DNA from: Maribacter spongiicola
GTDB lineage: Bacteria > Bacteroidota > Bacteroidia > Flavobacteriales > Flavobacteriaceae
Direction: 5' to 3'
Assembly (NCBI RefSeq): GCF_004364165.1
Contig: NZ_SOAY01000010.1
Coordinates: forward strand, 461,098 to 525,097
DNA length: 64,000 bases
Translations under genes and position numbers: made by a program
The notes under the pieces: model-generated
The model's input: the letters and a program-made list of their open reading frames with translations, nothing else
Told to the model about the DNA's origin: nothing
Databases searched by the model: none
Shown: positions 3,662 to 55,423 of the stretch, piece after piece
Position numbering within the stretch: the stretch's first letter is position 1
Layout: the number at the start of each line of letters is the position of its first letter

Positions 3662-3712
3662 ATTTAAATATTTAAACAACAGCGTTCTAAACCGTTATTT
3701 TTTATAATATCA

Positions 3713-5071: not shown

Positions 5072-5347
5072 CTTATACATTTTCCATAGCCGTTCAAAAA
5101 ATATGAACAATAGCTACTAAAGAACCGTTGGGGGAAACGTATTAGGTAGATAAGGAAGGGGCAATATAAAAAATTATAAAGTACTTAAAATTAAATAGTT
5201 GAATTTTTTAATTCATAGTGCTTTGAAATATGAAAGATATTCTAATATACCTCTTTAGTTAGCAAGATTTAGTCTTGTGACAAAAATATTAGATTAACGG
5301 TACAATTTTTCATTATACTTAATTTCATTTCATTTTGGTCTAAATAG

Positions 5348-6685
5348 TTATTCCCCCTTCAAAGCTCTTTTATGATACACAAGAATTTTTACACCAACGT
5401 AAAAGTTAGCAGCATTTGCTTTTTTTGATAAGTTAGAAAATAAGGTGCCAGAGCCTAAAAATAGAGGTCCAATACGCAAGCCAAGGCCTAGATTTGTTTT
5501 GCTCAAGCTGCTATGAGATATAGGAAGGTAGGCACCAAAAACCCTAGTTTCAAATCTTGGTGTTAAGGTGATTAAGTTTAAGCGGTTATTATTAAAGAAG
5601 TTATCCTTAGAGACCAAACCTTGGTTCAAGTCGAGATTAATATAAAATTTATTGTGAATATTGTAGTCAATATTTAAACGCATAGATGTCGGTAAGGAAA
5701 TTTTTATGTCTGCCGTAGTTGTAGTTTCGGTACTGTTATTATCAAGCTCCTCAATAAAATCATCTTCTAGGTCTCGCGCATCTAAATTGGCATTAATGGT
5801 ATAATCTGTAATGGCTGAATTTTTGTAGTTAATGCTACCTATATCTAATATTGATAGACCAATTTTTAATTTATATTGATTAAAAGCTCTTGGGTTGTTG
5901 GCATTTGAAGAAGCTAAGGTTTCATTGGTCCTATATTCATATACGAAACCTATATCGGTTCCAAAACCGGGTGACAATTCATTAAAGTAACTATCAGAAT
6001 CTTCATCATCATAACTTATAGCATATGAAAAATCACCATTTAAGGAAACCTGATCGTTGTTGTTGGTGTAGTTTCCTGATAAGGAATTTGAACTTCCTTG
6101 CAAAGCACCGCCACCAATTAGATATTTTAAGATGACACCTCCTTTAAATAGATTTTTTGAATCTTCAAATAAAACACGACCGTAAGAAAGGCCAATCTCT
6201 GCCCAAGCATGGGTGGTAAAATCTAAGTTCTCTTGTTCAAAATTAAAATCATCCACAGGAAAACCGTCGTAGATGGATTGGAACAATTCTCCATTTATAT
6301 TATTAAAATTACTGGCTAGCCGTACTCTTGTAATTAAAGCAAAGCTGCTCCTTTCATTCAAGGAAAACATAAAGGAAGGACCCAAAATATCAAGATTGGC
6401 TAAAATTTCATTGCTATTTGATGGATTTTTATCTAATTCATCAAAACCTCCATCACCTAAGATGTTACTTATATTATCTAAAGTAAGGTAGGTATAATCT
6501 GTTGCTAACAAACCACTTGCTGAAAACAAGTTAATGTCCACTTTGGTTCTAGAATCTGCTAGTGCACCTGGGTTATAAAGTACTCCATGTAGACCATTGC
6601 AATTATCTGTATTATAGCCTATATAAGATTGAGAAAATGATATGTATGCTGAAAATAGTAGTATGATTAGAATAGAATTTTTCAT
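5348..6685 (-). CDS. DUF5723 family protein, paralogue of 3713-5071
   Basis: This 445-residue protein has a cleavable signal peptide (MKNSILIILLFSAYISFSQ), the DUF5723 opening with NPGALADSRTKVDINLF, and a C-terminal stretch IGPLFLGSGTLFSNL that matches GPIMLGSGSILSNL of the neighbouring paralogue. The two genes probably arose by duplication, but 237 bp separate them and this one has its own control region. About 70 bp upstream of its ATG is a palindrome, TACCCTTTGGAGGGTA, followed at a set distance by a Bacteroidota -7 box (TAGATTTG). The same arrangement precedes the response-regulator operon to the right, so this gene is a likely target of that regulator. Predicted location is the outer membrane. 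Function is unknown. Confidence 0.82.
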   Translation of the reverse strand: MKNSILIILLFSAYISFSQSYIGYNTDNCNGLHGVLYNPGALADSRTKVDINLFSASGLLATDYTYLTLDNISNILGDGGFDELDKNPSNSNEILANLDILGPSFMFSLNERSSFALITRVRLASNFNNINGELFQSIYDGFPVDDFNFEQENLDFTTHAWAEIGLSYGRVLFEDSKNLFKGGVILKYLIGGGALQGSSNSLSGNYTNNNDQVSLNGDFSYAISYDDEDSDSYFNELSPGFGTDIGFVYEYRTNETLASSNANNPRAFNQYKLKIGLSILDIGSINYKNSAITDYTINANLDARDLEDDFIEELDNNSTETTTTADIKISLPTSMRLNIDYNIHNKFYINLDLNQGLVSKDNFFNNNRLNLITLTPRFETRVFGAYLPISHSSLSKTNLGLGLRIGPLFLGSGTLFSNLSKKANAANFYVGVKILVYHKRALKGE

Positions 6686-42807: not shown

Positions 42808-43728
42808 TTAAAGAAAACCATCTACTTTTTGGTAGGCTTCAATTACTGCAAGCTCACCTTCTTCACCATTTCTAGAATTACCATGCTCCATACCGAGTAT
42901 TCCAGTATAACCTTGCTCATGTATCCATTTAAATACGTTATAGTAATTTATTTCACCAGTAGTTGGTTCCTTTCGGCCTGGGTTATCGCCAATTTGTATA
43001 TATGCAATCTCTGGCCAAGAAGCTTCCATATTCGGGATCAGATTCCCCTCTTGAATTTGTTGGTGATAGATATCAAATAAAATTTTACATGAAGGTGAAT
43101 TAACCGCTCTGCAAATTTCAAAGGCTTGAGGCGAATCGGTCAAAAATAACCCTGGGTGATTTCTGAAATTCAATGGCTCTAAAACCATGGTAATATTATG
43201 TGGTTCTAATAGGGCAGATGCTTGTCTAAGGCTTTCTACAACATTGGCAGTTTGGTAGCCCATTTTTAATTTAAGGTCTAAATGACCTGGTACTACGGTC
43301 ATCCATTTTGCATTTACGCGTTTGGCTACTTCAATGGAGTTTTTTATATCATTTAAAAACTCTTCTCTTTTAGATAAATCTCCAGAGGCTAGGTTCGGTG
43401 TTGTCCAATGAATTTCATGGGCAACAAAAACACCCATTTCAATACCCCGTTTTATCATTGTTGCCGCCATTTTTTCTTGCTGTTCTACTGGGCGTTTACG
43501 CATCTCGTTATCCTCAAAAGCGGTAAATCCTTGATCAGCCATATAGTTTAATTGGTCTATGGGGTCGTCACCAGCAAGGTTTTTGAACATACCCAAGTGC
43601 GGAGCATACTTTAAATTGTATGAATGTGTGGTAGAATTTGTTAGCGTATTGGCGAATGTTACGTTACTCGCTACAGAAAGTGCGCCAGTACTTAAGGCTG
43701 TTTTTTGAATAAAACTTCTTCTTTTCAT
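42808..43728 (-). CDS. Tat-exported hydroxypyruvate-isomerase-like TIM-barrel protein
   Basis: 306 residues. MKRRSFIQKTALSTGALSVA is a twin-arginine style signal, so the folded protein is probably exported. The rest is an AP_endonuc_2/xylose-isomerase-like TIM barrel of the hydroxypyruvate isomerase type: HEIHW, VLEPLNFRNHPG (metal Glu), ILFDIYHQQIQEGN (Asp and His), YIQIGDNPGRKEPTTGEINYYNVF (a strong Hyi-family signature) and ILGMEHGN (Glu). The family isomerises or epimerises small sugars, and relatives in keto-glycoside pathways act on oxidised sugars. It is downstream of the GMC dehydrogenase/subunit 3 pair but separated by a hairpin terminator. The substrate is inferred only. Confidence 0.85.
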   Translation of the reverse strand: MKRRSFIQKTALSTGALSVASNVTFANTLTNSTTHSYNLKYAPHLGMFKNLAGDDPIDQLNYMADQGFTAFEDNEMRKRPVEQQEKMAATMIKRGIEMGVFVAHEIHWTTPNLASGDLSKREEFLNDIKNSIEVAKRVNAKWMTVVPGHLDLKLKMGYQTANVVESLRQASALLEPHNITMVLEPLNFRNHPGLFLTDSPQAFEICRAVNSPSCKILFDIYHQQIQEGNLIPNMEASWPEIAYIQIGDNPGRKEPTTGEINYYNVFKWIHEQGYTGILGMEHGNSRNGEEGELAVIEAYQKVDGFL

Positions 43729-43738
43729 ATGTAGTGTT

Positions 43739-43787
43739 TTTAAATAAAAATAGCCAAGAGCGATACATTATCTTGCCCTTGGCTATT
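43739..43787 (-). terminator. Hairpin with T-run after the subunit 3 gene
   Basis: AATAGCCAAG (43749-43758) pairs with CTTGGCTATT (43778-43787), 19-base loop; on the minus strand it is followed by TTTTTATTT. It lies between the subunit 3 gene and the TIM-barrel gene and may end or attenuate the dehydrogenase transcript. Confidence 0.7.
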
Positions 43788-43806
43788 AGATTAAACTGTT
43801 ATTAGG

Positions 43807-44454
43807 TTATAAGGACCATGCCTTACCACCTGAAAGCTCTTGTAGATCTCCACATGGTACATATTCGCCAGGTACAGGCAAGTAAGCTAAAACTTCTTCA
43901 CCAACATATTCAGAAGCTTTATAGCCCCAAATAGTCATGCCTCTTAAATTGTTTGCAAAAGCAAATCTAGAGACCTCATCATCTAACTGTGCAGTGCCGC
44001 CTTCAGCAATAGCTTCTGTGTAGCTATTTATAGATTTAGACATTTCTGTTTGCTGCTCTTTGGTATATTTCAAAGAACTTGCTAAAACTGGTTCTAAATC
44101 TTCTGCGGTTAAATCTTCAGCTTTATCTTTGCCAGAATCAGCTAAGGCTTTATTTATAAATTTGTTCATAGACATTTTAAGGAAATCTTGTTGTTCCGTT
44201 TCCATTACGTCTTTGGCAAATTTGTCAATAAAAATATCAACTTGTACTTCGGTGGCAGAAGGTGTATCGGTTTTAGGCAAAATAATATCTACCAATTTAG
44301 AAAGTACCGACCCTTCGTTTTGAGATAAAAATTCAGGAGTCCAAGTAATTGCTGGTTCACTTTTACAACTTTGTACTATTGATAATAAAGTTGGGGTGGC
44401 CACCATATATCCAAGTGACATACCCATATTTTTTAATACGCGTCTTCTATCCAT
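43807..44454 (-). CDS. Gluconate 2-dehydrogenase subunit 3 family protein (Tat substrate)
   Basis: 215 residues. A twin-arginine leader (MDRRRVLKNMGMSLGYMVA) is followed by the subunit 3 domain with EGSVLSKLVDIILPKTDTPSATEVQVDIFIDKF, the conserved opening of this family. In known gluconate, sorbitol and glucoside 3-dehydrogenases this small subunit carries the Tat signal and takes the signal-less flavoprotein across the membrane with it. Here the gene starts inside the stop of the GMC flavoprotein gene (TAATG, 1-bp overlap), so equal expression and complex formation are expected. No cytochrome c subunit gene is found nearby. Confidence 0.9.
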   Translation of the reverse strand: MDRRRVLKNMGMSLGYMVATPTLLSIVQSCKSEPAITWTPEFLSQNEGSVLSKLVDIILPKTDTPSATEVQVDIFIDKFAKDVMETEQQDFLKMSMNKFINKALADSGKDKAEDLTAEDLEPVLASSLKYTKEQQTEMSKSINSYTEAIAEGGTAQLDDEVSRFAFANNLRGMTIWGYKASEYVGEEVLAYLPVPGEYVPCGDLQELSGGKAWSL

Positions 44455-46163
44455 TATATGTTTCCTTTTTTAAGTTCATTAACCGCGTGATTTGCAGCTC
44501 TGGCCGTAAAGGCCATATAAGTTAGTGATGGGTTTACACAACTAGCAGAGGTCATAAACGATCCATCTGTTACATATACATTTCGTACATCGTGCAATTG
44601 GTTATTTCCGTTCAAAACAGAGGTTTTTCTATCTCTTCCCATACGGGCCGTACCCATTTCATGTATACCTAAACCCAATGCACTTTCTTCATCATAACCT
44701 TTTACATCTCTAAGTCCGGCTTTTTCTAACATATCAACAGCCGATTCTAAAATGTCTTTACGCATTTTAAGTTCGTTTTCTTGAAGCTCGGCATCAAAAG
44801 TAACCGTTGGTAGACCCCAATCATCTAATTTATCGTAGTCTAATGTAAATCTGTTGTTTTCGTATGGTAATACTTCACCGAAGCCCATCATGCCAAACGT
44901 CCATCCGCCTGGTTTAATAACAGCATTTTTTAATTCTTTACCGTGAGATAGTTCTGCAATGGATTCTTCCCAGTTACCTCTAGAGGCACCACCTTGGTAT
45001 CCAAATCCTCTCTTATATTCTCTATCAGTATCTCCACCTAAGTTTCTAAATCTAGGGATATAGATTCCATTAGGCTTTCTTCCTTTATAGTACTTATCAT
45101 CGAATCCATCAAATTTACCAGAAGCACCAACTTTTAATTGATGATCCATTATGTTTCGGCCTAATTGGTCAGATTCATTACCCATACCATTGGGGAACGT
45201 TTCAGATTTTGATTGCATTAAAATTGAAGTAGATGCAATTGCAGAAGCACATAAAAATATAACCTTCGCCTTAAATTCAAAGTTTTCTTTAGTATTAGCA
45301 TCAATTACCTTTACACCTGTAGCTTTCTTTGTCTTAGGGTCATACATAACCTCATGTACGATCGAATCTGGTCTTAGGGTCATATTACCTGTCGCCTCCG
45401 CTGCTGGTAATGTAGATGATAAACTACTGAAGTAAGCTCCAAAAGGACAACCTCTAATGCATCTGTTTCTAAATTGACATTTACTTCTGCCATCAAATTG
45501 TTTTGTTCCTGTAAGGTGTGCTACTCTACCAGCAGTAACTACTCGCCCATCAAAATTCTCAGCTACTTTTTCTCTAAAAACTTGTTCTACACAATTTAGA
45601 TCCATCATTGGTAAAAATTGACCATCTGGCAATTGATCCAAACCTAGGTTTTCACCACTTACTCCAATAAATGTTTCTACTTTATCGTACCAAGGTGCTA
45701 TATCCTTATAACGAACAGGCCAATCTACGGCAATACCTTCTTTTTTGTTTGCTTCAAAATCAATATCGCTTAAACGGTAACTTTGACGCCCCCATTGCAA
45801 AGAGCGACCACCTAGATGATATCCTCGCATCCAATCGAATCTCTTTGTTTCGTTATATGGGTGTTTTAGGTCGTTTACAAACCACATATTACTTGCTTGG
45901 TTTGTAGTGTAACCTGTTCTATGCTGCTTTGGTTGTTGCGCTATAATTTCTTTTGTCGGTTCACCCGCATTCGGGAAATCCCATGGGTCCATATTAGCAG
46001 TCTCATAGTCATCAATGTGTTTGACCATTCTACCACGTTCTAAAACTAGGGTTTTAAGGCCTGCCTCACATAATTCTTTTGCGGCCCAACCACCACTTAT
46101 TCCAGTACCTACGACAATTGCGTCATACGACTCTTGTTCTTCGTTATAATAAAATTTGCTCAT
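44454..46163 (-). CDS. GMC-family FAD-dependent sugar/glycoside dehydrogenase
   Basis: 569 residues, no signal peptide. The FAD Rossmann motif is AIVVGTGISGGWAAKEL, GYHLGGRSLQWGRQSYR is the flavin-contact region, and the C-terminal active site has H in GIHEMGTARMG and N in CVNPSLTYMAF. C229, C235 and C239 form a C-x5-C-x3-C cluster (KCQFRNRCIRGCPFG) like the Fe-S-binding cysteines of FAD-dependent glucose/gluconate dehydrogenases. Its partner is the Tat-exported subunit 3 encoded next. Together they resemble glucoside 3-dehydrogenase, which oxidises a sugar C3-OH in the periplasm and passes electrons to a cytochrome. It shares most of its length with 50919-52622. The substrate is inferred from the neighbouring DUF1080 and TIM-barrel genes. 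Confidence 0.88.
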   Translation of the reverse strand: MSKFYYNEEQESYDAIVVGTGISGGWAAKELCEAGLKTLVLERGRMVKHIDDYETANMDPWDFPNAGEPTKEIIAQQPKQHRTGYTTNQASNMWFVNDLKHPYNETKRFDWMRGYHLGGRSLQWGRQSYRLSDIDFEANKKEGIAVDWPVRYKDIAPWYDKVETFIGVSGENLGLDQLPDGQFLPMMDLNCVEQVFREKVAENFDGRVVTAGRVAHLTGTKQFDGRSKCQFRNRCIRGCPFGAYFSSLSSTLPAAEATGNMTLRPDSIVHEVMYDPKTKKATGVKVIDANTKENFEFKAKVIFLCASAIASTSILMQSKSETFPNGMGNESDQLGRNIMDHQLKVGASGKFDGFDDKYYKGRKPNGIYIPRFRNLGGDTDREYKRGFGYQGGASRGNWEESIAELSHGKELKNAVIKPGGWTFGMMGFGEVLPYENNRFTLDYDKLDDWGLPTVTFDAELQENELKMRKDILESAVDMLEKAGLRDVKGYDEESALGLGIHEMGTARMGRDRKTSVLNGNNQLHDVRNVYVTDGSFMTSASCVNPSLTYMAFTARAANHAVNELKKGNI

Positions 46164-46335
46164 AAAAGTTGTTTAATCTCTAAATTTATTAAATATAAAA
46201 TTAATTCTATACATTTAAAGTCCATTATTCTTGCGAAATTCGCTATTACTAACATTATGCTAGAATAATGAATCAATTCATAATTTTAACGTCAACAGTT
46301 AGGGTTATATTTCAAACAACAGCAAACCACCAAAA

Positions 46336-47328
46336 ATGAAAAGAAAAAGTTTTATTCGAATTGCTTCTATTGTGGGCATTGGAATCTCGTTATTAGGAAC
46401 TTACGCGTGTAAGGAAGCTAAAAAAGAAAAAGTGGAAAATTCTGAAGTCGTAGCAAAAGACAGTAATGTTGCTCCATTTTTTAAATTATCTCTAGCACAA
46501 TGGTCAATGCATAAAATGATCAGAGAAGATGGCGTTGATCCATATTCTTTTGCTAAAAAAGCTAAAAACTGGGGATTTACAGGACTAGAATATGTAAGTC
46601 AGCTGTATAATCCTGAATTAGAAGAAGCAGGTTACTCTGAAGAGGCTATGTCAAATTTCGTAGCAAAATCTAATGCCGAAGCTGAAAAATACGGAATGAA
46701 GAATGTTTTGATCATGATCGATGGTCAAGGAAATTTAGCGGTTAATGATGAAACCGAAAGAAACGAAACTGTAGAGAAGCATAAAAAATGGGTAGATGCC
46801 GCTGCAGCTATGGGTTGTCATGCCATTAGAGTGAACCTTAACGGGAGTAACGTGCCTGAAGAATGGATCAAGAATTCTGTTGACGGACTTACCAAATTAG
46901 CGACTTACGCGAAAACTAAGAATATTAATGTTTTAGTTGAAAATCATGGTGGATTATCGTCTAATGGAGAGTTACACGCTCAGGTGATGAAAACCGTAAA
47001 TATGGATAACTGTGGGAGCTTGCCTGATTTTGGTAATTTCTGTATGGAACGTAAGCCAGAGAGTTGGGATTGTTTAAAGGAGTATGATAAATACAAGGGT
47101 GTTAAAGAATTAATGCCATATGCTAAGGCTGTAAGTGCAAAATCTAACAATTTTGATGCTGACGGATATGATACAGGTATTGATTACGTTCAAATGCTGA
47201 AAATTGTGAAAGATGCTGGATATACCGGATTTATCGGTGTGGAATATGAAGGCTCTGAAATTAGTGAAGAGGCAGGTATAATTGCTACTAGAGATCTTTT
47301 GTTGAAAGCAGCACAAGAAATAGAATAA
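46336..47328 (+). CDS. Predicted lipoprotein, sugar phosphate isomerase/epimerase-like TIM barrel
   Basis: 330 residues. The N-terminus MKRKSFIRIASIVGIGISLLG ends in a lipobox-like TYAC, so C25 is the likely lipidated residue. The mature part is an AP_endonuc_2-type TIM barrel starting LSLAQWSMHKMIREDGVDP, with VLVENHGGLSSNG (Glu), CGSLPDFGNFC (Asp), AVSAKSNNFD and FIGVEYEGSE (Glu) as candidate metal ligands. Many proteins in this group take oxidised or keto-sugars as substrate. It is the first gene of a rightward unit with DinB and a nucleoside-permease-family transporter, divergent from the GMC dehydrogenase, within the same metabolic locus. Confidence 0.85.
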   Translation: MKRKSFIRIASIVGIGISLLGTYACKEAKKEKVENSEVVAKDSNVAPFFKLSLAQWSMHKMIREDGVDPYSFAKKAKNWGFTGLEYVSQLYNPELEEAGYSEEAMSNFVAKSNAEAEKYGMKNVLIMIDGQGNLAVNDETERNETVEKHKKWVDAAAAMGCHAIRVNLNGSNVPEEWIKNSVDGLTKLATYAKTKNINVLVENHGGLSSNGELHAQVMKTVNMDNCGSLPDFGNFCMERKPESWDCLKEYDKYKGVKELMPYAKAVSAKSNNFDADGYDTGIDYVQMLKIVKDAGYTGFIGVEYEGSEISEEAGIIATRDLLLKAAQEIE

Positions 47329-47343
47329 TCAAGAGTATGATTT

Positions 47344-47787
47344 ATGGAGACTTTTTTTAATGAAATATTCGATTATAATTTTCACTGTAATAAAAAGCTG
47401 ATAGAACAGTGTTTGGCGCTAGATGCAGTACCACCAGAAACCATGCGTTTATTCAGTCATATATTAAATGCGCATCATCTTTGGAACGCTAGAATTTTAA
47501 ATAAACCTAGTGATTACGAGGTTTGGCAAGAACATGATGTTAAAAAATGGGCAGATATTCATTATGAAAATCAACGTAATTCGTTCGAGATAGTCACTAA
47601 TGCAGATAATTTTGATAGGCGTATTGACTATGAGAATACCGAAGGGCGATTGTTTACCAATACCTTGCAAGATATTCTGTTTCATATCATCAATCATTCA
47701 ACAAATCATAGAGGGCAAATTGCTGTAGATTTTAGAAATAATGATGAAACACCTATAAGTTCAGATTATGTGTATTACAAAAGATAG
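47344..47787 (+). CDS. DinB family protein
   Basis: 147 residues with the four-helix DinB/YfiT fold. Three His in HILNAHHLWNARIL and HIINHSTNHRGQI are placed as the family's metal-binding triad. DinB proteins are often bacillithiol S-transferases or damage-response proteins of uncertain role. The next gene's ATG follows its stop directly with no gap, so translation is coupled. Its presence in a sugar-metabolism operon may be coincidental. Confidence 0.87.
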   Translation: METFFNEIFDYNFHCNKKLIEQCLALDAVPPETMRLFSHILNAHHLWNARILNKPSDYEVWQEHDVKKWADIHYENQRNSFEIVTNADNFDRRIDYENTEGRLFTNTLQDILFHIINHSTNHRGQIAVDFRNNDETPISSDYVYYKR

Positions 47788-49017
47788 ATGAAAAATAAAG
47801 TCAGAGCCCAGCTTTGCTTTATGATGTTTTTAGAATTTTTTATTTGGGGTGCGTGGTTCGTGACACTAGGTACATTTTTAGGAAACAATTTAAAAGCAAC
47901 AGACGGTGAAATAGCCTTGGCATTTTCAACACAATCATGGGGAGCTATTATTGCTCCCTTTGTTATCGGTATAATAGCGGACAGATACTTTAATGCAGAA
48001 AGAATTTTAGGGATTTTGCATCTTTTTGGTGCGGTACTTATGTATTTCATGTACCAAAGTGCTGCTTTCGATGATTTTTATATGTTGGTTTTGGTTTATA
48101 TGATTTTATATATGCCCACTTTGGCTTTGGTAAACTCGGTATCCTTTAATCAGATGAAGAACCCAGCGAAAGAGTTTTCAATGGTTAGGGTATTTGGAAC
48201 TGCAGGATGGATTATTGCGGGACTCTCAATCAGCTATGTTTTTAGCTGGGACCAAGGGGAAAATATTGGGCAAGGTCTATTGAAAAATACTTTTTTAATG
48301 ACTGCGATAGCCTCCTTGATTTTAGGTTTTTTTAGCTTTACGTTACCTAAAACACCACCAAAAGCCGCTAGTTCAGAAAAACTAGGATTGAAAAATATTT
48401 TAGGCTTAGATTCCTTGAGTTTATTTAAGGATAAGAATTTTTTAATATTCTTTATCTCTTCGGTTTTAATATGTATTCCGCTGGCATTTTACTATCAGAA
48501 TGCAAATCCGTTTCTTGTTGAAATCGGGATGGATAATCCAACAGGCAAAATGACATTAGGACAAATTTCTGAGATTGCCTTTATGTTATTACTGCCTTAT
48601 TTCTTTACCAAATTCGGCTTTAAGAAAACTATTCTTGTTGCTATGGCGGCTTGGGTCGTGCGCTATTTATTATTTGCATTTGGTGATGTCAACGAACTTG
48701 GGTTTATGCTCATCATCGGTATAGCACTGCATGGTATATGTTATGATTTTTTCTTTGTCTCTGGGCAAATATATACTGACAGTAAAGCGGGTGAAAAGTT
48801 CAAAAGCTCGGCACAAGGTCTTATAACACTGGCAACCTATGGTGTGGGTATGTTAATTGGGTTTTGGGTCGCAGGTAAAATATCTGCCGCATATCTTTTA
48901 GAAGACGGTAAACATTTGTGGGAAACCATTTGGATGTATCCGGCTGGTTTTGCACTGGCTGTATTTATTTTGTTCGCCATTTTATTTAAAACAGAGAAAA
49001 TAGAATATCAGTCTTAG
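47788..49017 (+). CDS. MFS transporter, nucleoside permease (NupG) family
   Basis: 409 residues, about twelve helices. MKNKVRAQLCFMMFLEFFIWGAWFVTLGTFLG at the N-terminus and GIIADRYFNAERILGILHLFGA are typical of the nucleoside:H+ symporter branch of the major facilitator superfamily. In Bacteroidota, members of this branch often lie beside oxidoreductases and TIM-barrel isomerases and could carry glycosides or their breakdown products rather than nucleosides. Here it closes a three-gene unit within the proposed keto-glycoside locus. The substrate is unproven; the inner membrane location is clear. Confidence 0.88.
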   Translation: MKNKVRAQLCFMMFLEFFIWGAWFVTLGTFLGNNLKATDGEIALAFSTQSWGAIIAPFVIGIIADRYFNAERILGILHLFGAVLMYFMYQSAAFDDFYMLVLVYMILYMPTLALVNSVSFNQMKNPAKEFSMVRVFGTAGWIIAGLSISYVFSWDQGENIGQGLLKNTFLMTAIASLILGFFSFTLPKTPPKAASSEKLGLKNILGLDSLSLFKDKNFLIFFISSVLICIPLAFYYQNANPFLVEIGMDNPTGKMTLGQISEIAFMLLLPYFFTKFGFKKTILVAMAAWVVRYLLFAFGDVNELGFMLIIGIALHGICYDFFFVSGQIYTDSKAGEKFKSSAQGLITLATYGVGMLIGFWVAGKISAAYLLEDGKHLWETIWMYPAGFALAVFILFAILFKTEKIEYQS

Positions 49018-49182
49018 ATAAATTCTTTAATTTAAACGCCTGAAAATTGTGACTCGTAAAATGCTTTAGCTGTTCTTTAAAAGATAAATAGGGAGATTTT
49101 TTCAAAAATTAAAACAAATATAAATCCGAAGGGATTTTAAACAATACTATTTTCAAAAACAAACAACAAAAACAACAACAAG

Positions 49183-50322
49183 ATGCCAAAGAAAATACGA
49201 TTAGGAATATTAGGTGGAGGTGGAGATTCTTTAATAGGAGTGTTGCACAGAGTAGCATCATTTATTAATGATAATTATGAAATAACAGGTGCTGTTTTTA
49301 ATCCTGATTATGATGCTAACATAGAATTCGCCAAAGAAATAGATGTTCCGTTAAATAGAATATATAAAGATTTTGATACTTTAATTGAAGAGGAATTAAA
49401 GTTGCCAGAAGATGAGCGTATTCAAGTATGTTCTATTCTTACCCCAAACTTTTTGCACTACCCAATGGCAAAGAAGTTATTGGATAATGGTTTTAGCGTT
49501 ATCTGTGAAAAGCCGATGACTACTACTTTAGAGGAAGCGAAAGATTTACAGAAAGCTCATGAGAAAGCAGGTACTGTTTTCGCTTTAACCCACACCTATA
49601 CAGGTTACCCAATGGTACGCCAAATGCGTGAAATGATCAAAGCTGGTGCTTTAGGTAAAATTCATAAGGTAGATGCAGTCTATTACCAAGGGTGGATTAA
49701 TACGATTATTCATGACAAGGAAAAGAGATCTTCTGTTTGGAGATTAGATCCTAAAAAAGCTGGTATTAGTTCTTGTATGGGCGATATTGGTGTTCATGCC
49801 TTTAATATGGTTGAATATACTACGGGACTTAAAGTGAACGAATTACTTTGCGACTTCAACTACCTTTATGAAGATAACCAGATGGATGTTGATGGTACCG
49901 TGCTAATACGTATGGGTGACCATGTAAAAGGTGTTATTAGAGGTAGTCAAGTAGCTACGGGTGAAGAAAACGGATTAGCCATTTCTATTTATGGCGAAAA
50001 AGGTGCTTTTCGTTGGGAGCAAGAACGCCCCAACTTCTTATACAAATTAAGCGATACTGAACCAACACAAATTTACAAGCCAGGTCATGCCTATAATTCT
50101 GAATTGTCTTTAGATGGTACAAAACTTCCAGCTGGTCACCCAGAAGGGATATTTGATTCTATGGCGAACATCTATAAAGGTGTTGCAAGAGCAATTAGAG
50201 GTGAAAAATACAATGACGGCGAATTCCCAACTATGGCAGACGGTGTTCGTGGTATGAACTTTATTGAAGCAACCGTAGATTCGCATAAAAGCGGAAATAT
50301 TTGGGTAGCTTTAGAGAACTAA
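49183..50322 (+). CDS. Gfo/Idh/MocA family NAD(P)-dependent oxidoreductase
   Basis: 379 residues without signal peptide. The Rossmann motif is GILGGGGDSLIGVLHRVA, and the catalytic EKP motif is in GFSVICEKPMTTTLEEAKD. The C-terminal alpha/beta domain has the usual GDIGVHAFNMVEYTTGLKV with the conserved Asp and His. The family interconverts hydroxyl and keto groups on sugars or inositols with NAD(P); in keto-glycoside routes such enzymes either make or reduce the 3-keto sugar in the cytoplasm. It is a single-gene unit ended by a strong terminator, between the transporter unit and the ASCH gene. Confidence 0.92.
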   Translation: MPKKIRLGILGGGGDSLIGVLHRVASFINDNYEITGAVFNPDYDANIEFAKEIDVPLNRIYKDFDTLIEEELKLPEDERIQVCSILTPNFLHYPMAKKLLDNGFSVICEKPMTTTLEEAKDLQKAHEKAGTVFALTHTYTGYPMVRQMREMIKAGALGKIHKVDAVYYQGWINTIIHDKEKRSSVWRLDPKKAGISSCMGDIGVHAFNMVEYTTGLKVNELLCDFNYLYEDNQMDVDGTVLIRMGDHVKGVIRGSQVATGEENGLAISIYGEKGAFRWEQERPNFLYKLSDTEPTQIYKPGHAYNSELSLDGTKLPAGHPEGIFDSMANIYKGVARAIRGEKYNDGEFPTMADGVRGMNFIEATVDSHKSGNIWVALEN

Positions 50323-50340
50323 AAAGTAATTATTAGGTAT

Positions 50341-50369
50341 AAAAAGAGCCGCAATTTGCGGCTCTTTTT
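50341..50369 (+). terminator. Bidirectional terminator
   Basis: AAAAAGAGCCGC (50341-50352) and GCGGCTCTTTTT (50358-50369) form a perfect stem around a 5-base loop with T-runs in both directions, ending the Gfo/Idh/MocA gene and the convergent ASCH gene. Confidence 0.9.
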
Positions 50370-50392
50370 GTTTTATAAATTTTAAGTGATAA

Positions 50393-50854
50393 TTAAGAAT
50401 TTACCACTTTAAAATGTTGGCATACAACAATCATACTTTCTCTTGGTTCTCTTTTGAATTTTTGTAATTCTCTGGTAAAAAAGTCCCAATGATATTTTTT
50501 CCAGCTGTCCAATGATTTGTCTCCATTTGCCTCTAATTGAGCATAGGTAGAATCAATACTAAAATACGGTTTAAGAGAAACGGCGGTTGTAGCTACTATA
50601 CATTGTGCTTCACCACTCCAATTTGTGACTACTATATAATCTCCTATTTTTGGTAAAGCTTCATTTCGGTTTTGTAAACCTAGTAAAGAATGTGAAATTG
50701 CCTTTTTCGCTCCACTCTGTATTAATCTGGCGTTTTCGTTGGCATCTTGTTCATTGTCGCCAAAATACATTGTTTTAGGTGCCTCGTGAAAGACATCTTC
50801 GAGGTGATTTTTTAAATAGTCACCCCACATATTTCTGGCTGAAGCATTTTCCAT
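50393..50854 (-). CDS. ASCH domain protein
   Basis: 153 residues. The pattern MWGDYLKNH, GAKKAISHSL, LPKIGDYIVVTNWSGEAQCIVATTAVSLKPYFSID, and W-K-K-YHWDFF fits the ASCH fold (PUA-like beta barrel), whose members bind RNA or nucleotides; some have been shown to be RNases or acetylcytidine amidohydrolases. It is cytoplasmic. It stands alone and is convergent with the Gfo/Idh/MocA gene. It is probably unrelated to the sugar genes around it. Confidence 0.85.
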   Translation of the reverse strand: MENASARNMWGDYLKNHLEDVFHEAPKTMYFGDNEQDANENARLIQSGAKKAISHSLLGLQNRNEALPKIGDYIVVTNWSGEAQCIVATTAVSLKPYFSIDSTYAQLEANGDKSLDSWKKYHWDFFTRELQKFKREPRESMIVVCQHFKVVNS

Positions 50855-50918
50855 AAGTAGTTATTTTCTTTAAGCTATAGGATTTAATAAACGTTATAAT
50901 CCCTAATTAATTTTAACG

Positions 50919-52622
50919 TTATGCGAATTTTCCTGCTTTTAATTGTTCAGCTGCATGGTTTGCAGCTCTTGCCGTAAAAGCCATATAGGTTAATGATGGA
51001 TTTACACAGCTAGATGATGACATAAAAGCACCATCGGTCACGTAAACATTCGGCACCAAATGTACTTGATTATTTTTATTTATAATCGAAGTCTTTGCAC
51101 TGTGCCCCATTCTTGCGCCACCCATTTCATGAATGCCTAAGCCTGGTCCGCTAGGTTCATCATAAGAAGAAACATCTTTAAAACCAGCTTTTTCGAACAT
51201 CGTTACAATTTCCTTTTTAATGTCTTCGCGCATTTTATACTCGTTCTCTTTAAACTCAACGTCAAAAGCCAATTGTGGTAATCCCCATTTGTCTTTTTCA
51301 GTAGGGCTTAGGGTAACTCGGTTATCGTCATAAGGTAAGAATTCACCAAATCCTGTTACACCTATTGTCCAATTTCCTGGTTTTAGTACAGATTCTTTTA
51401 GCTCTTTTCCATAACCTAACTCGCCAATTTCTTTAGACCAATCTCCTCTACTTGCAGTACCTTGGTAACCGAAACCACGTAAATAACCTTCGCGCTTTGT
51501 ATTCTCGTTCAGGTTTACAAAGCGAGGTATGTAAAATCCGTTCGCACGTCTTCCTTTATAATACTTATCTAAGTACCCATCAACTTTAGCAGTTGCTCCA
51601 AGTTTGTAATGGTGGTCCATAATACCCCTTCCTAAAGCATCAGAATCATTTCCTAATCCGTTAGGGAAGCGTTCAGATTTAGATTGTAGCAAGATGCCAA
51701 CCGATGCCATTGCCGATGCACATAGAAAAATTACCTTTGCCTTAAATTCTATTTTCTCATTGGTTTCAGCATCAATAATACGTACGCCTGTTGCTTTTTT
51801 TGTAATATCATCATAGATGATTTCATGCACTATAGAGTTTGGTCTCAAGGTCATATTTCCGGTACGTTCTGCTGCTGGTAATGTAGATGAGTTACTACTG
51901 AAATAACCGCCAAACGGGCATCCGCGCCAGCACCGGTCTCTATTTTGGCATGTGCCACGACCTTCAAAAGTTGCATTAGGGTCTGTAATGTGTGCTGCTC
52001 TACCGATGGTAACTAAACGTCCGTCGTCAAACTTATCGGCAGTTGTTTTCTTAAAATCCTCTTCAACACAATTCAATTTCATGGCTGGTTGAAATATGCC
52101 ATCGGGCAATACATCTAAGCCTAATGCCTCGCCACTTACTCCAATATATTCCTCGACTTTATCATACCAAGGCGAAATATCTTTATAACGAACAGGCCAG
52201 TCTACACCAATACCTTCTTTTTTATTTGCTTCAAAATCAATATCGCTCCATCGGTAACTTTGACGCCCCCAAGTAAGTGATCTGCCACCAACTTGATAGC
52301 CACGAATCCAGTCAAAACGTTTTGTTTCAACATACGGGTGATCAAGATCGTTTACGAAAAAGTGCTTTGAGTCTTCTGTCGGAGCCCAATTTACGCGTTT
52401 TTGTATGTGATATTTTTTCTCATCTTCCTTAGATAATTTACCTTTTAGAGGATAATCCCATGGGTCATCGTTCATGGTAGGGTAATCTTCAATATGTTTT
52501 ACCATAGGACCACGTTCTAAAACAAGAGTTTTTAAGCCGTTCTCTGTTAATTCCTTAGCTGCCCAGCCGCCACTTATTCCTGTTCCGACAACAATTGCGT
52601 CGAATATTTCATCTTGATTCAT
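50919..52622 (-). CDS. GMC-family FAD-dependent dehydrogenase, paralogue without adjacent subunit 3
   Basis: 567 residues, similar throughout to 44454-46163: AIVVGTGISGGWAAKEL, GYQVGGRSLTWGRQSYRWSD, the cysteine cluster C225, C231 and C235 in TCQNRDRCWRGCPFG, H in GIHEMGGARMG and N in CVNPSLTYMAF. It also lacks a signal peptide. Unlike the first copy, there is no subunit 3 gene on either side, so it either shares the single subunit 3 made at 43807-44454 or works in the cytoplasm. It is divergent from the TIM-barrel/DUF1080 operon and likely feeds the same pathway with a different glycoside. Confidence 0.87.
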   Translation of the reverse strand: MNQDEIFDAIVVGTGISGGWAAKELTENGLKTLVLERGPMVKHIEDYPTMNDDPWDYPLKGKLSKEDEKKYHIQKRVNWAPTEDSKHFFVNDLDHPYVETKRFDWIRGYQVGGRSLTWGRQSYRWSDIDFEANKKEGIGVDWPVRYKDISPWYDKVEEYIGVSGEALGLDVLPDGIFQPAMKLNCVEEDFKKTTADKFDDGRLVTIGRAAHITDPNATFEGRGTCQNRDRCWRGCPFGGYFSSNSSTLPAAERTGNMTLRPNSIVHEIIYDDITKKATGVRIIDAETNEKIEFKAKVIFLCASAMASVGILLQSKSERFPNGLGNDSDALGRGIMDHHYKLGATAKVDGYLDKYYKGRRANGFYIPRFVNLNENTKREGYLRGFGYQGTASRGDWSKEIGELGYGKELKESVLKPGNWTIGVTGFGEFLPYDDNRVTLSPTEKDKWGLPQLAFDVEFKENEYKMREDIKKEIVTMFEKAGFKDVSSYDEPSGPGLGIHEMGGARMGHSAKTSIINKNNQVHLVPNVYVTDGAFMSSSSCVNPSLTYMAFTARAANHAAEQLKAGKFA

Positions 52623-52783
52623 GCTTGAAATTTTATCTTTTTCTGATGGTAATCCCTATATTTATAGCAAATCTCCAAAGTATTGAGAAGAACCTGATAC
52701 AATTCTTAAATATAAGATTTTTTGAGAGATGTGACATCTCAAATGCAACAACAAATTCAAACAACAACAGATAGTATATTTTT

Positions 52784-53836
52784 ATGAAAACAATCAAAGG
52801 ACCAGCCGTATTTTTGGCACAGTTTGTAGACAGTAAAGCTCCATTTAATTCCTTGGACGGAATGTGTAAATGGGCTGCTGATTTAGGATATAAAGGAATT
52901 CAAATTCCGACGTGGGAAACTTTTTTAATCGATTTAGACAAAGCAGCTGAAAGTCAGACCTACTGCGATGAGCTGAAAGCCAAAGTAAACTCTTACGGTT
53001 TAGAGATCACAGAACTTTCTACACACTTACAAGGGCAATTAGTTGCTGTTAATCCTGCATATGACTTAATGTTCGATTCTTTTGCTCCAAAAAATGTTCA
53101 TGGCAATCCAAAAGCTAGAACAGAATGGGCAATAGAAACCGTAAAAAAAGCAGCAACTGCAAGTAGAAGGCTTGGGTTAAAAGCTCATGCTACTTTTTCT
53201 GGATCATTATTATGGCATACCATGCACCCTTGGCCACAAAGACCAGCTGGTTTAGTGGAAATGGGTTTTGAAGAATTGGCGAAAAGATGGACTCCGATTT
53301 TAAATCATTTTGATAAAGAAGGTGTTGATGTGTGCTATGAGATTCACCCAGGTGAAGATTTACATGATGGTGATACTTTTGAGCGTTTTTTAGAAGCAAC
53401 CGGCAACCATAAAAGAGTAAATATTCTTTATGACCCAAGCCATTTTGTACTGCAACAGTTAGATTATATCACGTACATAGACCATTATCATGAGTTTATA
53501 AAATCTTTTCACGTGAAAGATTCTGAATTTAACCCTACAGGTAAAAAAGGTGCTTTTGGTGGTTATAACGATTGGGGCAATAGGGCTGGTAGATATCGTT
53601 CATTAGGTGACGGACAAATAGATTTCAAAACCATATTTTCTAAATTGACACAATATGGTTGTGATGTTTGGGCGGTTATGGAATGGGAATGTTGTATTAA
53701 GAGTCCGGAGCAAGGTGCTCGTGAAGGAGCTAAATTCATTTCTGATCATATTATCGAAGCGACAGAAAAGACTTTTGATGATTTTGCAGGTGCTGAAATC
53801 GATAAAGAAATGTTGAAGAAAATGTTGGGACTTTAA
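52784..53836 (+). CDS. Sugar phosphate isomerase/epimerase-like TIM-barrel protein (cytoplasmic)
   Basis: 350 residues, no signal peptide. TIM-barrel signature MCKWAADLGYKGIQIPTW, then metal-binding positions in VCYEIHPGEDLHDG (Glu), VNILYDPSHFVLQQLD (Asp and His), FIKSFHVKDSEF (His, Asp) and WAVMEWECCIKSPE (Glu). The family acts on sugars and keto-sugars, often opening or epimerising them with a divalent metal. It is the first gene of a three-gene unit followed at 6 bp by two DUF1080 lipoproteins. It is the third TIM-barrel of this kind in the locus, and the only one without an export signal. Confidence 0.88.
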   Translation: MKTIKGPAVFLAQFVDSKAPFNSLDGMCKWAADLGYKGIQIPTWETFLIDLDKAAESQTYCDELKAKVNSYGLEITELSTHLQGQLVAVNPAYDLMFDSFAPKNVHGNPKARTEWAIETVKKAATASRRLGLKAHATFSGSLLWHTMHPWPQRPAGLVEMGFEELAKRWTPILNHFDKEGVDVCYEIHPGEDLHDGDTFERFLEATGNHKRVNILYDPSHFVLQQLDYITYIDHYHEFIKSFHVKDSEFNPTGKKGAFGGYNDWGNRAGRYRSLGDGQIDFKTIFSKLTQYGCDVWAVMEWECCIKSPEQGAREGAKFISDHIIEATEKTFDDFAGAEIDKEMLKKMLGL

Positions 53837-53842
53837 AATTAG

Positions 53843-54586
53843 ATGATGAAGAAATATATAGTAAGTTTAGCATGTATATTAGCATTCGTTGCATGTAAGC
53901 AAGAGAAAAAAGAGACCACCGAAACAGCCGTTGTCGAAGAAGTTGCCGTAGTAGAAAATGATTGGGAAGTATTGTTTGACGGTACTTCTTTAGATCAATG
54001 GAAAGAATTCAAAACCGACGGAGTAAGTGATGCTTGGAAAATAGATGGGGATGCATTGGTTTACACACCACCTGCTGAAGGTGAAGAGAATCAAAACCAT
54101 GACCTTGTAACAAGACAGGAGTATACCAATTTTGTGTTAAGCTTAGATTGGAAAATATCTGAGGCTGGCAATAGTGGTGTCTTTTGGGGAGTTAGTGAGG
54201 ATGAGAAATTTGGAACAGGCTATCAAACTGGTCCGGAGATTCAAATTTTAGATAATGATAAACATCCAGATGCAAAGGCAGGAACTACACACCAAGCGGG
54301 TGCTTTGTATGATATGGTTTCACCGGCTAAAGATGTTACGAACCCAGTTGGGGAGTGGAACACAATGGTAATTACAGTAGATCACAATGCGCATGTAGGT
54401 AGTGTTACCTTAAATGGCACTGTAATGGTAACTTTCCCTGTAGCAAATGAAGAATGGGATGCTATGGTAGCAAGATCTAAATTTGCAGGTTGGGATGGAT
54501 TCGGAAAATATACAACCGGAAAAATCGGACTACAAGATCACCATAATGTAGTAGCTTTTAGAAACATAAAAATCAAACAACTTTAA
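53843..54586 (+). CDS. DUF1080 (3-keto-disaccharide hydrolase family) lipoprotein, copy 1
   Basis: 247 residues. MMKKYIVSLACILAFVAC is a lipoprotein signal (Cys18-19, depending on which of the two Met is used), followed by an acidic linker and the DUF1080 jelly-roll: WEVLFDGTSLDQWKEF, FVLSLDWKISEAGNSGVFWGV, GPEIQILDNDKHPDAK, TTHQAGALYDM and GKIGLQDHHNVVAFRNIKIKQL. Enzymes of this family cleave 3-keto-glycosides by a non-hydrolase-like route or hydrolyse them. The protein is probably anchored in the periplasm or on the outer membrane. It is placed directly after a TIM-barrel gene and before a second DUF1080 gene, within a GMC-dehydrogenase locus. Confidence 0.9.
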   Translation: MMKKYIVSLACILAFVACKQEKKETTETAVVEEVAVVENDWEVLFDGTSLDQWKEFKTDGVSDAWKIDGDALVYTPPAEGEENQNHDLVTRQEYTNFVLSLDWKISEAGNSGVFWGVSEDEKFGTGYQTGPEIQILDNDKHPDAKAGTTHQAGALYDMVSPAKDVTNPVGEWNTMVITVDHNAHVGSVTLNGTVMVTFPVANEEWDAMVARSKFAGWDGFGKYTTGKIGLQDHHNVVAFRNIKIKQL

Positions 54587-54598
54587 TAGCATTTACGT

Positions 54599-55423
54599 AT
54601 GAAAAATAGATATTCATTACTATTGGTAGTTGCTTCTTTAGGAGTAATTTCTTGTCAAGAAAAAGTAACTGTAGCTACTGAGGGAGAGTTAGAAGCTGTT
54701 AAGGATAGTGTAATCGTTCATGAGGAATACATGGGCGAAGAACCAACTACGCCCGAAGAAACTGAGTTTTATGAGCCTAAAGTTGCCTTTGTTAAACCTG
54801 CTACCGCTAGTAATGCACCAAGTGATGCTGTGGTACTTTTTAATGGTACTAGCTTAGAGAATTGGATCAGTACAAATGATAGTACAGCTGCCAAATGGCA
54901 TTTGAACAAAGATGGGAGTATGACGGTAAATGATAAAACCGGTAATATACAGACCAAGCAAAATTTTGGAGACGTTCAGTTGCATATAGAATGGAAATCT
55001 CCTTTACCAGTGCAGAGAGATAATCAGAATAGAGCAAATAGCGGTGTATTTCTAAATGGAATTTATGAAGTACAAATTCTGGATCAAAATGATAATCCTA
55101 CCTATGTTAATGGGCAAGTGGGCTCTATTTATAAGCAACATGTACCCTTAGCAATGGCTTCTGTGCCAACAGGCGAGTGGAATACGTATGATATTATTTA
55201 TCATGCACCAGAATTTAATGTTGATGGCGGCAAGATAAAATCAGGCGATATTACCGTAATTCATAATGGCATCTTAGTACAAGATCATGTGGAGTTAAAA
55301 GGTACGACACCTTATGTTGGTTGGCCTAAAAACCCGGCTCATGGTAAAGGACCGTTAATGTTACAAGATCACGGCGATGATAGCCGTGTTAGTTTTAGAA
55401 ATATTTGGGTTAGAGAACTTTAA
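54599..55423 (+). CDS. DUF1080 (3-keto-disaccharide hydrolase family) lipoprotein, copy 2
   Basis: 274 residues. Lipoprotein signal MKNRYSLLLVVASLGVISC with Cys19, then a long acidic linker (about 20-75) and the same DUF1080 fold: VLFNGTSLENWISTND, QLHIEWKSPLPVQRDNQNRANSGVFLNG, YEVQILDQNDNPTY, GSIYKQHVPLAMAS and GPLMLQDHGDDSRVSFRNIWVREL. It is moderately different from copy 1, so the two may act on different keto-glycosides or in sequence. Last gene of the unit, followed by a terminator at 55444. Confidence 0.9.
   Translation: MKNRYSLLLVVASLGVISCQEKVTVATEGELEAVKDSVIVHEEYMGEEPTTPEETEFYEPKVAFVKPATASNAPSDAVVLFNGTSLENWISTNDSTAAKWHLNKDGSMTVNDKTGNIQTKQNFGDVQLHIEWKSPLPVQRDNQNRANSGVFLNGIYEVQILDQNDNPTYVNGQVGSIYKQHVPLAMASVPTGEWNTYDIIYHAPEFNVDGGKIKSGDITVIHNGILVQDHVELKGTTPYVGWPKNPAHGKGPLMLQDHGDDSRVSFRNIWVREL

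Follow-up and report, generated by a model that had tools for sequence, protein, structure and literature searches.

The DNA described here, referred to throughout as the window, is a stretch of 64,000 nucleotides from Maribacter spongiicola. Twelve genes at positions 42808 to 55423 form a cluster which, judged from its sequence, probably specifies a route that breaks glycosidic bonds without hydrolysis, the sugar being oxidized first and cleaved afterwards. The genes and the names used for their products are as follows.

42808 to 43728, minus strand: TIM1, a Tat-type, xylose-isomerase-like TIM barrel, hydroxypyruvate-isomerase-like (PF01261, 119 bits)
43807 to 44454, minus strand: subunit 3, gluconate 2-dehydrogenase subunit 3 family with a Tat-type N-terminus (PF13618, 95.9 bits)
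44454 to 46163, minus strand: GMC1, an FAD GMC oxidoreductase (PF05199/PF00732)
46336 to 47328, plus strand: TIM2, a lipoprotein TIM barrel resembling C-glycoside deglycosidases (CGDs) (AP_endonuc_2; PDB 4ovx, 260 bits)
47344 to 47787, plus strand: DinB-family protein, starting 15 bases after TIM2 (PF05163, 45.9 bits)
47788 to 49017, plus strand: NupG-like permease (Nuc_H_symport, PF03825, 379 bits)
49183 to 50322, plus strand: Gfo, a cytoplasmic Gfo/Idh/MocA oxidoreductase (PF22725/PF01408; PDB 3v5n, 295 bits)
50393 to 50854, minus strand: ASCH-domain protein, between Gfo and GMC2 (PF04266, 58.4 bits)
50919 to 52622, minus strand: GMC2, a GMC1 paralogue without its own subunit 3 gene (GMC_oxred_N and GMC_oxred_C)
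52784 to 53836, plus strand: HYD, a cytoplasmic TIM barrel of 350 residues, homologue of PDB 8ro4 (AP_endonuc_2)
53843 to 54586, plus strand: D1080a, a DUF1080 lipoprotein (PF06439, 160.3 bits; PDB 4jqt, 152 bits)
54599 to 55423, plus strand: D1080b, a DUF1080 protein of the 4qhz type (PF06439, 142.1 bits; PDB 4qhz, 250 bits)

Architecture of the cluster

The cluster opens with a minus-strand unit composed of TIM1, subunit 3 and GMC1, which is followed by a plus-strand stretch of TIM2, the DinB-family protein, the permease and Gfo, a minus-strand pair formed by the ASCH-domain protein and GMC2, and finally a plus-strand unit of HYD, D1080a and D1080b. The gaps between genes range from -1 to 172 bases, the reading frames of subunit 3 and GMC1 overlapping by one base. 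All Pfam matches of the cluster proteins lie above the gathering cut-offs, and three TIM barrels (42808-43728, 46336-47328 and 52784-53836) belong to PF01261 (AP_endonuc_2).

A prior, sequence-only reading of this region had named each of these gene classes apart from the DinB and ASCH genes. Those it named are all present as open reading frames with Pfam support, and the two that it passed over (47344-47787 and 50393-50854) lie inside the cluster. Its assignment of one TIM barrel to Tat export, one to the lipoproteins and one to the cytoplasm holds, as does the Tat export of subunit 3. Indeed, the arginine pair of TIM1 is invariant in 47 aligned rows, Cys25 of TIM2 is invariant in 58, and the motif RRxxL(K/R) occurs in 55 of 59 subunit 3 orthologues. 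It had also stated that SusC/D and glycoside hydrolase (GH) genes are absent, and this agrees with the searches: Hymenobacter probes for SusC, SusD, GH65 and cytochrome c, together with a Xanthomonas probe for a relative of the eliminase AtOGE, had no match in the window (tblastn, E<=1e-3), and no GH gene was seen in the Pfam assignments of the cluster genes or with the GH65 probe, other GH families not having been probed.

Conservation in the Flavobacteriaceae

The 80 best named matches to HYD, at 90 to 98% identity, were taken as the set of related loci; the closest are from Maribacter caenipelagi (98%) and M. sedimenticola (97%). These loci are kin, and the conservation counts that follow come from related sequences, not from independent events. 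When sixteen window proteins were compared with the 80 loci by tblastn, the same arrangement was observed, including the DinB and ASCH genes and the yicC-gmk flank. Genes were counted, as tblastn matches of at least 50% coverage, in the 68 loci that extend at least 9.5 kb upstream and at least 4.5 kb downstream of HYD, 12 of the 80 being omitted for a short flank. Note that GMC1 and GMC2, and likewise D1080a and D1080b, were told apart by best bit score, so that these labels may be swapped in single loci. For the orthologue alignments, tblastn matches with less than 60% query coverage or less than 45% identity were removed.

HYD, Gfo and the ASCH-domain protein are encoded in all 68 loci. At least one GMC gene occurs in 67, at least one DUF1080 gene in 67 (D1080a in 65, D1080b in 56), and both kinds are kept in 67. 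TIM2 was found in 64 loci, the permease in 59, subunit 3 in 57 and TIM1 in 39, with TIM1 and subunit 3 lying near the edge of the DNA examined. Two GMC genes are present in 37 loci, one in 27, three in 3 and none in 1. The window order of the non-GMC genes and the strands of all genes are kept in 67 of the 68 kin loci, which is more than chance. The sole exception, Maribacter litopenaei (L014), has doubled matches; several of its genes appear split or doubled, perhaps through assembly frameshifts. The DinB (63/68) and ASCH genes are about as constant as the cluster enzymes.

In one locus, that of Maribacter arenosus (L050), GMC1, GMC2 and subunit 3 are missing along with the two DUF1080 genes, as would be expected if their products act together; the DinB and ASCH genes are retained. 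Across the 80 related loci there is a single SusC-like match. In the family at large, a HYD match (E<=0.001) was obtained for 166 of 299 genomes, representing 125 of 203 genera; at least one weak match (2.4e-5) is among them.

Related gene sets and the hydratase homologue HYD

The closest biochemical precedent is an operon of Agrobacterium tumefaciens in which AtOGE, an eliminase, is encoded together with a glycoside dehydrogenase of the GMC family, a Gfo protein and AtHYD, a putative hydratase (Bitter et al. 2023, PMC10628242). In the available text of that paper AtOGE is characterized, and the order proposed for the operon is oxidation, elimination, hydration (a preliminary assignment) and reduction. 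PDB entry 8bvk was taken to be AtOGE, since its length and the positions of His132 and His134 agree with that text.

Overlapping gene sets, called kits below, were found in Pseudoalteromonas, Croceicoccus, Catenovulum, Ketogulonicigenium, Hymenobacter, Halomonas sp. PA16-9, Paracoccus, Palleronia and Xanthomonas sacchari, among plasmid records with HYD, GMC or AtOGE relatives; the Halomonas set was read from open reading frames. No two are identical. The Hymenobacter plasmid kit, for example, combines a GMC protein, subunit 3, NupG, Gfo, HYD, a cytochrome c, three more TIM barrels and DUF1080. In the stretches examined the Ketogulonicigenium kit shows no DUF1080 gene and those of Paracoccus and Halomonas no HYD, and ABC importers are found in the Palleronia, Paracoccus and Ketogulonicigenium kits. 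At 3061-4754 of the Halomonas plasmid the GMC frame is interrupted; either the gene is disrupted or the sequence contains an error.

AtOGE relatives with 55 to 63% identity to 8bvk lie inside the Halomonas, Paracoccus, Xanthomonas, Palleronia and Ketogulonicigenium clusters; further matches are a partial gene in Rhizobium rhododendri and relatives of 23 to 34% in five other loci. None was detected in the window or in the 80 related loci, L004 to L083 (tblastn, E<=1e-3). On these comparisons, the flavobacterial cluster resembles the kit of the other bacteria with nothing in the place of AtOGE. The plasmid record searches returned no near-identical AtHYD (84% at best) and no AtOGE operon with its GMC.

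The HYD gene, the only such match in this genome (4.46 Mb, 18 contigs searched), ties the cluster most directly to elimination chemistry. Its product aligns over residues 1-350 with residues 1-349 of PDB 8ro4, annotated as 2-hydroxy-3-keto-glucal hydratase, at 547.5 bits. The solved structures that come next trail far behind, 2zds at 160 bits and IolE (3cny) at 41 bits. Identity to seven kit HYD proteins from elsewhere is 59 to 67%. The alignment places HYD close to 2-hydroxy-3-keto-glucal hydratase, and we infer that 8ro4 is the A. tumefaciens hydratase of Bitter et al. or a close relative of it. This likeness points to cleavage by β-elimination, with hydration and reduction to follow, rather than to plain hydrolysis. 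The route outlined in the sequence-only reading, in which an oxidized glycoside is split outside the cytoplasm and the product imported and reduced, fits the gene set in its general course and is made more specific at this step.

The lipoprotein TIM2

The nearest solved relative of TIM2 is PDB 4ovx, an uncharacterized protein from Planctomyces limnophilus. A profile built from 58 TIM2 orthologues matched nine PDB sequences beyond 4ovx, with E-values of 1.2e-12 to 1.4e-5, most of the matches being centered on the C-terminal third. Eight of the nine are CGD TIM-barrel chains, and the ninth is the isomerase Art22. According to the available text of Mori et al. (2021, PMC8563793), the CGD metal ligands are Glu147, Asp179, His269, Lys271 and Glu305, the base is His149, and Glu307 is also named in the site; alanine mutants of the metal ligands showed dramatically reduced activity. 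The same source gives 4OVX as a Dali relative of the PuCGD α subunit with a Z-score of 27.4, the higher-scoring of the two listed.

The counterparts kept in TIM2 are E202, D231, K269 and E303 for the metal ligands, H204 for the base and E305 for the last glutamate, whereas the ligand His269 is replaced by Ser267. The pattern E202-x-H204, D231, S267-x-K269, E303-x-E305 is complete in 70 of 70 aligned rows, and in 20 of the 20 best loci of the phylum, which have 42 to 100% identity and include the window's own; Ser267 is thus present throughout. Among 13 weaker phylum matches, serine is found in eight, His-x-K in two and glutamine in one, the remaining two being unalignable there. The eight serine rows have 27 to 39% identity; two of them alter K269 or the last glutamate pair, and in three the last glutamate falls in an alignment gap. 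The two His-x-K proteins, distant Bacteroidota relatives of TIM2 (L130 and L133, 25% and 27%), carry the full CGD ligand pattern. The phyla named for CGDs in the available text of PMC8563793 are Actinobacteria, Proteobacteria and Firmicutes; His-x-K in these distant relatives shows that Bacteroidota also hold proteins with the full ligand set, and serine marks the TIM2 branch. Altogether, 59 of 247 Bacteroidota genomes have a TIM2 match, and a GMC gene adjoins TIM2 in 11 of the 19 phylum loci other than the window (about 1.5 kb per side).

The exported TIM barrels had been expected to split or isomerize the keto-glycoside and were described as isomerase-like. For TIM2 that description can be carried further: since both the profile and the active-site motif relate it to CGD TIM-barrel subunits, it is, with moderate confidence from sequence, a candidate periplasmic 3-keto-glycoside β-eliminase.

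The structural comparison that the sequence-only reading had proposed as a check was run on TIM2 with an AlphaFold2 model (mean pLDDT 89). The first PDB match is 4ovx (Z-score 41.0, root-mean-square deviation 1.4, 269 aligned residues), followed by Art22 at 29.1. The 49 rows after 4ovx span Z-scores of 29.1 to 24.2, and within them the CGDs, at 26.4 to 24.8, lie among isomerases of similar score. The absence of AtOGE from the rows listed carries no weight either way. The comparison places CGDs among the relatives of TIM2 but does not separate them from isomerases, and the fold thus does not decide the function.

The most serious competitor is a scheme in which TIM2 isomerizes or epimerizes free keto-sugars and the DUF1080 proteins alone carry out the cleavage; we give it somewhat less than an even chance. 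It would account for the serine at the third metal-ligand position, as the His269Ala change in two CGDs dramatically reduced C-C cleavage (PMC8563793, available text). It is also favored by the structural comparison, where epimerases and isomerases lie within about two Z units of the CGDs and Art22 above them, and by the lack of a CGD β-subunit match: a Croceicoccus PF19906 probe matched only its own locus among L001 to L101 and the window (E<=1e-2). Against it stand the eight CGD chains among the nine profile matches after 4ovx, the retention of E-x-H, of the rare x-K ligand and of E-x-E, the full His-x-K in distant Bacteroidota relatives, and the empty AtOGE slot of the flavobacterial loci. 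The TIM barrel that Croceicoccus encodes next to a genuine CGD β subunit is 24% identical to TIM2 and reads V-H-G-K where TIM2 reads V-S-A-K. In Croceicoccus marinus this CGD TIM-barrel/β pair (4978-6392; PF19906, 131.9 bits) lies amid GMC, subunit 3, HYD and Gfo genes.

If TIM2 is an eliminase, a broader proposal can be made, which we offer tentatively. TIM2 may represent a family, so far undescribed, of 3-keto-glycoside β-eliminases in Bacteroidota (and, by 4ovx, Planctomycetota) that are anchored in the membrane, act in the periplasm as single subunits, derive from or are sister to the CGD TIM-barrel subunits and have a Glu/Asp/Ser/Lys/Glu site; they would fill the place of AtOGE in a standing route for small glycosides in Flavobacteriaceae, one that lies outside polysaccharide utilization loci (PULs). 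In a limited look at the open-license literature, neither the lipoprotein family nor its serine variant was seen to be mentioned. An eliminase of this kind would also provide a natural test of which metal ligands are needed for 3-keto-glycoside elimination, since TIM2 lacks the histidine that is important in the known enzymes.

The GMC dehydrogenases and subunit 3

GMC2 is 68% identical to GMC1. Toward the GMC proteins of the Ketogulonicigenium, Palleronia, Xanthomonas, Paracoccus and Hymenobacter kits, identities are 56 to 57% for GMC1 and 52 to 54% for GMC2; with Catenovulum added as a sixth protein, the ranges become 56 to 60% and 52 to 60%. Both are 47 to 48% identical to the Croceicoccus GMC, 31 to 33% to that of Pseudoalteromonas, and 52 to 57% to those of four AtOGE-bearing clusters. 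In an alignment that included fructose dehydrogenase (FDH; rows of 541 to 599 residues, identical rows dropped), Cys229, Cys235, Cys239 and Asn544 of GMC1 are kept in 132 of 132 rows and His501 in 131. We take the three cysteines to be ligands of an iron-sulfur cluster, and the histidine and asparagine to be catalytic residues.

The N-termini of both GMC proteins open directly with the FAD-binding region, and their export would go via the Tat-type subunit 3, which is proposed as a candidate partner or escort of the flavoprotein. Subunit 3 is 23 to 27% identical to seven kit counterparts.

In a FastTree phylogeny of selected rows rooted on FDH, GMC1, GMC2, a third GMC protein of this genome and the Catenovulum protein form one group, which adjoins a clade (support 0.999) of the Hymenobacter and AtOGE-associated proteins. 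GMC1 (0.912) and GMC2 (1.0) are separate clades, two rows labeled GMC1 fall in the GMC2 clade, and the Pseudoalteromonas GMC groups with another paralogue. The third GMC gene (C1:1528905-1530596, 63%) has no subunit 3 match nearby; its neighbors resemble, by eye, genes of uronate or rhamnose catabolism. A fourth (C5:53242-55540, 35%) is accompanied by subunit 3 and an exported-looking TIM barrel, the latter distantly AtOGE-like (24%).

GMC1 is proposed as the catalytic subunit of a candidate glycoside 3-dehydrogenase. The C3 regiochemistry is assigned from the operon company and is not read from the sequence. Alternatively, the GMC pair could be aldose or alcohol dehydrogenases that act at C1, C2 or C5 of free sugars and feed the respiratory chain, with the TIM barrels, DUF1080 proteins and HYD serving other substrates. 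The best PDB matches, to fructose and FAD-glucose dehydrogenases, and the variation from zero to three GMC genes per locus would suit such a role, but GMC genes stand beside DUF1080, subunit 3, HYD or AtOGE relatives in several phyla and are kept together with DUF1080 in 67 of the 68 flavobacterial loci; we regard it as unlikely.

The permease and the Gfo protein

The permease is 68% identical to that of the Halomonas kit (343 of 409 residues aligned), 56% to that of Hymenobacter and 53% to that of Xanthomonas, and is proposed as a candidate importer of the cleavage product. Its family, the nucleoside:H+ symporters (379 bits), raises the thought that the natural substrate is a nucleoside. This is improbable, as the protein misses the nucleoside permease cut-off of TIGR00889 (366.6 versus 446.1 bits) and several kits of other bacteria use a sugar ABC importer instead. 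Gfo is proposed as a candidate 3-keto-hexose reductase. It was also considered as a 3-dehydrogenase of the Bacteroides BT_2158/BT_2159 type, an assignment dropped on scores far under the cut-offs. A role of the cluster in the metabolism of myo-inositol or another cyclitol, with IolE-like TIM barrels, an IolG-like dehydrogenase and a GMC polyol dehydrogenase, is the least probable of all: the NCBIfam similarities that hint at it (IolE, 61.7 bits; IolG, 49.5 bits) are far under the cut-offs of 290 and 355, HYD is far nearer 8ro4 than IolE, no other inositol gene appears among the Pfam assignments of the cluster, and DUF1080 would be left unexplained.

TIM1 and the DUF1080 proteins

TIM1 scores 133.9 bits against the hydroxypyruvate isomerase NCBIfam model, under its cut-off of 353.45. 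Residues R3, R4, E184 and D219 are invariant in the 47 rows, which include Proteobacteria (one orthologue was removed by length), and the motif RRxh is found in 40 of 41 orthologues. Identity to seven kit counterparts is 23 to 47%. The AlphaFold2 model (pLDDT 84.5) is nearest to 3ngf (Z-score 30.0) and 1k77 (29.4), and matches YcjR, a 3-keto-D-glucoside 4-epimerase (6wn6), at 27.1. Given this structural nearness, a keto-sugar epimerase is a fair guess, and the model makes TIM1 a candidate periplasmic keto-sugar epimerase or isomerase.

Both DUF1080 proteins score well above the PF06439 gathering score of 26.8, in keeping with their earlier assignment to the 3-keto-disaccharide hydrolase family. 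They keep 14 near-invariant polar or aromatic columns in an alignment of 11 rows, 4qhz, 4jqt and 3hbk among them, from which the Halomonas protein was omitted. That both are lipoproteins holds better for D1080a, 74 of whose 75 orthologues have a cysteine within residues 11-55, than for D1080b, with 52 of 65; several D1080b orthologues have a signal peptide without the lipoprotein cysteine. D1080b is 48 to 52% identical to the DUF1080 proteins of Catenovulum, Paracoccus, Hymenobacter, Xanthomonas, Palleronia and Halomonas and 27% to that of Pseudoalteromonas, and its 4qhz-type subtype is common to kits of other phyla. D1080a is proposed, from its family, as a putative 3-keto-glycoside lyase or hydrolase.

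Two more loci in this genome, at C1:1389-1391 kb and C1:1588-1590 kb, combine a two-domain DUF1080 protein with a Tat-type Gfo/Idh/MocA protein. The Gfo protein of the first is BT_2158-like (153 bits, below the cut-off), and the second has sulfatase-like neighbors by eye. They apparently represent another, Gfo-driven type of 3-keto-glycoside system.

Proposed route

Family membership, export motifs, conserved catalytic-type residues and a conserved association of the genes were observed; from these we infer the reactions, their order and the substrate. In the first step, GMC1 with subunit 3 would oxidize the C3 hydroxyl of the glycosyl group in the periplasm, GMC2 also taking part and perhaps sharing the subunit 3 of GMC1; electrons would pass from FAD through the predicted three-cysteine iron-sulfur site to the respiratory chain. 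The DUF1080 proteins, TIM2 or both would then cleave the 3-keto-glycoside outside the cytoplasm by β-elimination to give the leaving group and 2-hydroxy-3-keto-glucal (or 3-keto-hexose after hydration). The permease would bring the keto-sugar in, HYD would hydrate the glycal to the 3-keto-hexose, and Gfo would reduce the latter to an ordinary hexose. TIM1 probably epimerizes or isomerizes a keto-sugar outside the cytoplasm.

Several observations weigh against this route. The best PDB relatives of GMC1 are, as noted, the large subunits of fructose and glucose dehydrogenases. The third dehydrogenase component of the LacABC system is a cytochrome c, and the Hymenobacter kit probe detected no c-type cytochrome gene in the cluster and, genome-wide, a single weak match, at 36% across some 100 residues. 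Gfo is only 28 to 41% identical to eight kit Gfo proteins, and it scores 32 and 19.5 bits against the BT_2158 and BT_2159 NCBIfam cut-offs of 750 and 650. The permease was not found in 9 of the 68 loci and subunit 3 in 11, some perhaps lying beyond the locus edge. Maribacter arenosus keeps HYD, Gfo, the permease, TIM1 and TIM2 with no GMC gene in the locus; three Rhizobium records hold HYD and Gfo with no annotated GMC gene nearby; and a Pontibacter relative of TIM2 has no kit gene annotated nearby. Finally, none of ten Pedobacter DUF1080 genes had a lactose phenotype in the available text of Price et al. (2022, PMC9007349).

With these points taken into account, the oxidation-elimination route remains the probable function of the cluster. 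The first interpretation of this DNA is largely right; what it noticed is confirmed, and the pathway is a variant of one already known.

SusC/D PULs and glycoside hydrolases are the usual guide to how marine Bacteroidota use carbohydrates. The route proposed here has neither, and its genes occupy a single chromosomal site across the 80 named loci closest to the window. Given that fixed place and the occurrence of HYD in over half of the genomes searched, counts of PULs and of carbohydrate-active enzymes (CAZymes) would miss it.

Comparison with known systems

With the A. tumefaciens GlycDH-AtOGE-AtHYD-Gfo operon the cluster shares a GMC protein with a Tat partner, a hydratase-type TIM barrel and a Gfo/Idh/MocA protein. 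It differs in having no AtOGE relative, and proteins found in addition are a second GMC protein, two of the DUF1080 family, a CGD-like lipoprotein, a Tat-type TIM barrel and a NupG-like permease. The pairing of DUF1080 with a nearby GMC dehydrogenase is shared with the Caulobacter LacABC and DUF1080 lactose locus (PMC9007349, available text), from which the cluster differs by the lack of a cytochrome gene, none having been found, and by its fixed place beside yicC-gmk. The account of Price et al. (PMC9007349) also means that such clusters in Bacteroidota are already in print. A search for literature combining these families with Flavobacteriaceae, among open-license papers only, found none.

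In the Bacteroides BT2157-BT2159-type system, too, oxidation at C3 is reportedly followed by cleavage by DUF1080 proteins, but a Gfo/Idh/MocA protein carries out the oxidation; in the present cluster a GMC flavoprotein would do so. TIM2 has the same fold as the CGD TIM-barrel subunit (DgpB-C, CarB-C; Mori et al. 2021, PMC8563793) and keeps its E-x-H, D, x-K and E-x-E elements. The differences are the change of the metal-binding histidine to serine, the absence of a detected β subunit, the lipoprotein nature of TIM2 and the phylum, Bacteroidota. The known CGDs are soluble heteromers and are not known to carry a lipoprotein anchor. The pathway type is already known, as is the likeness of 4OVX to the CGDs (PMC8563793, available text). 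What is new is that the cluster keeps one place on the chromosome in many Flavobacteriaceae, that it has no AtOGE, and that it includes a CGD-like lipoprotein whose metal site is altered.

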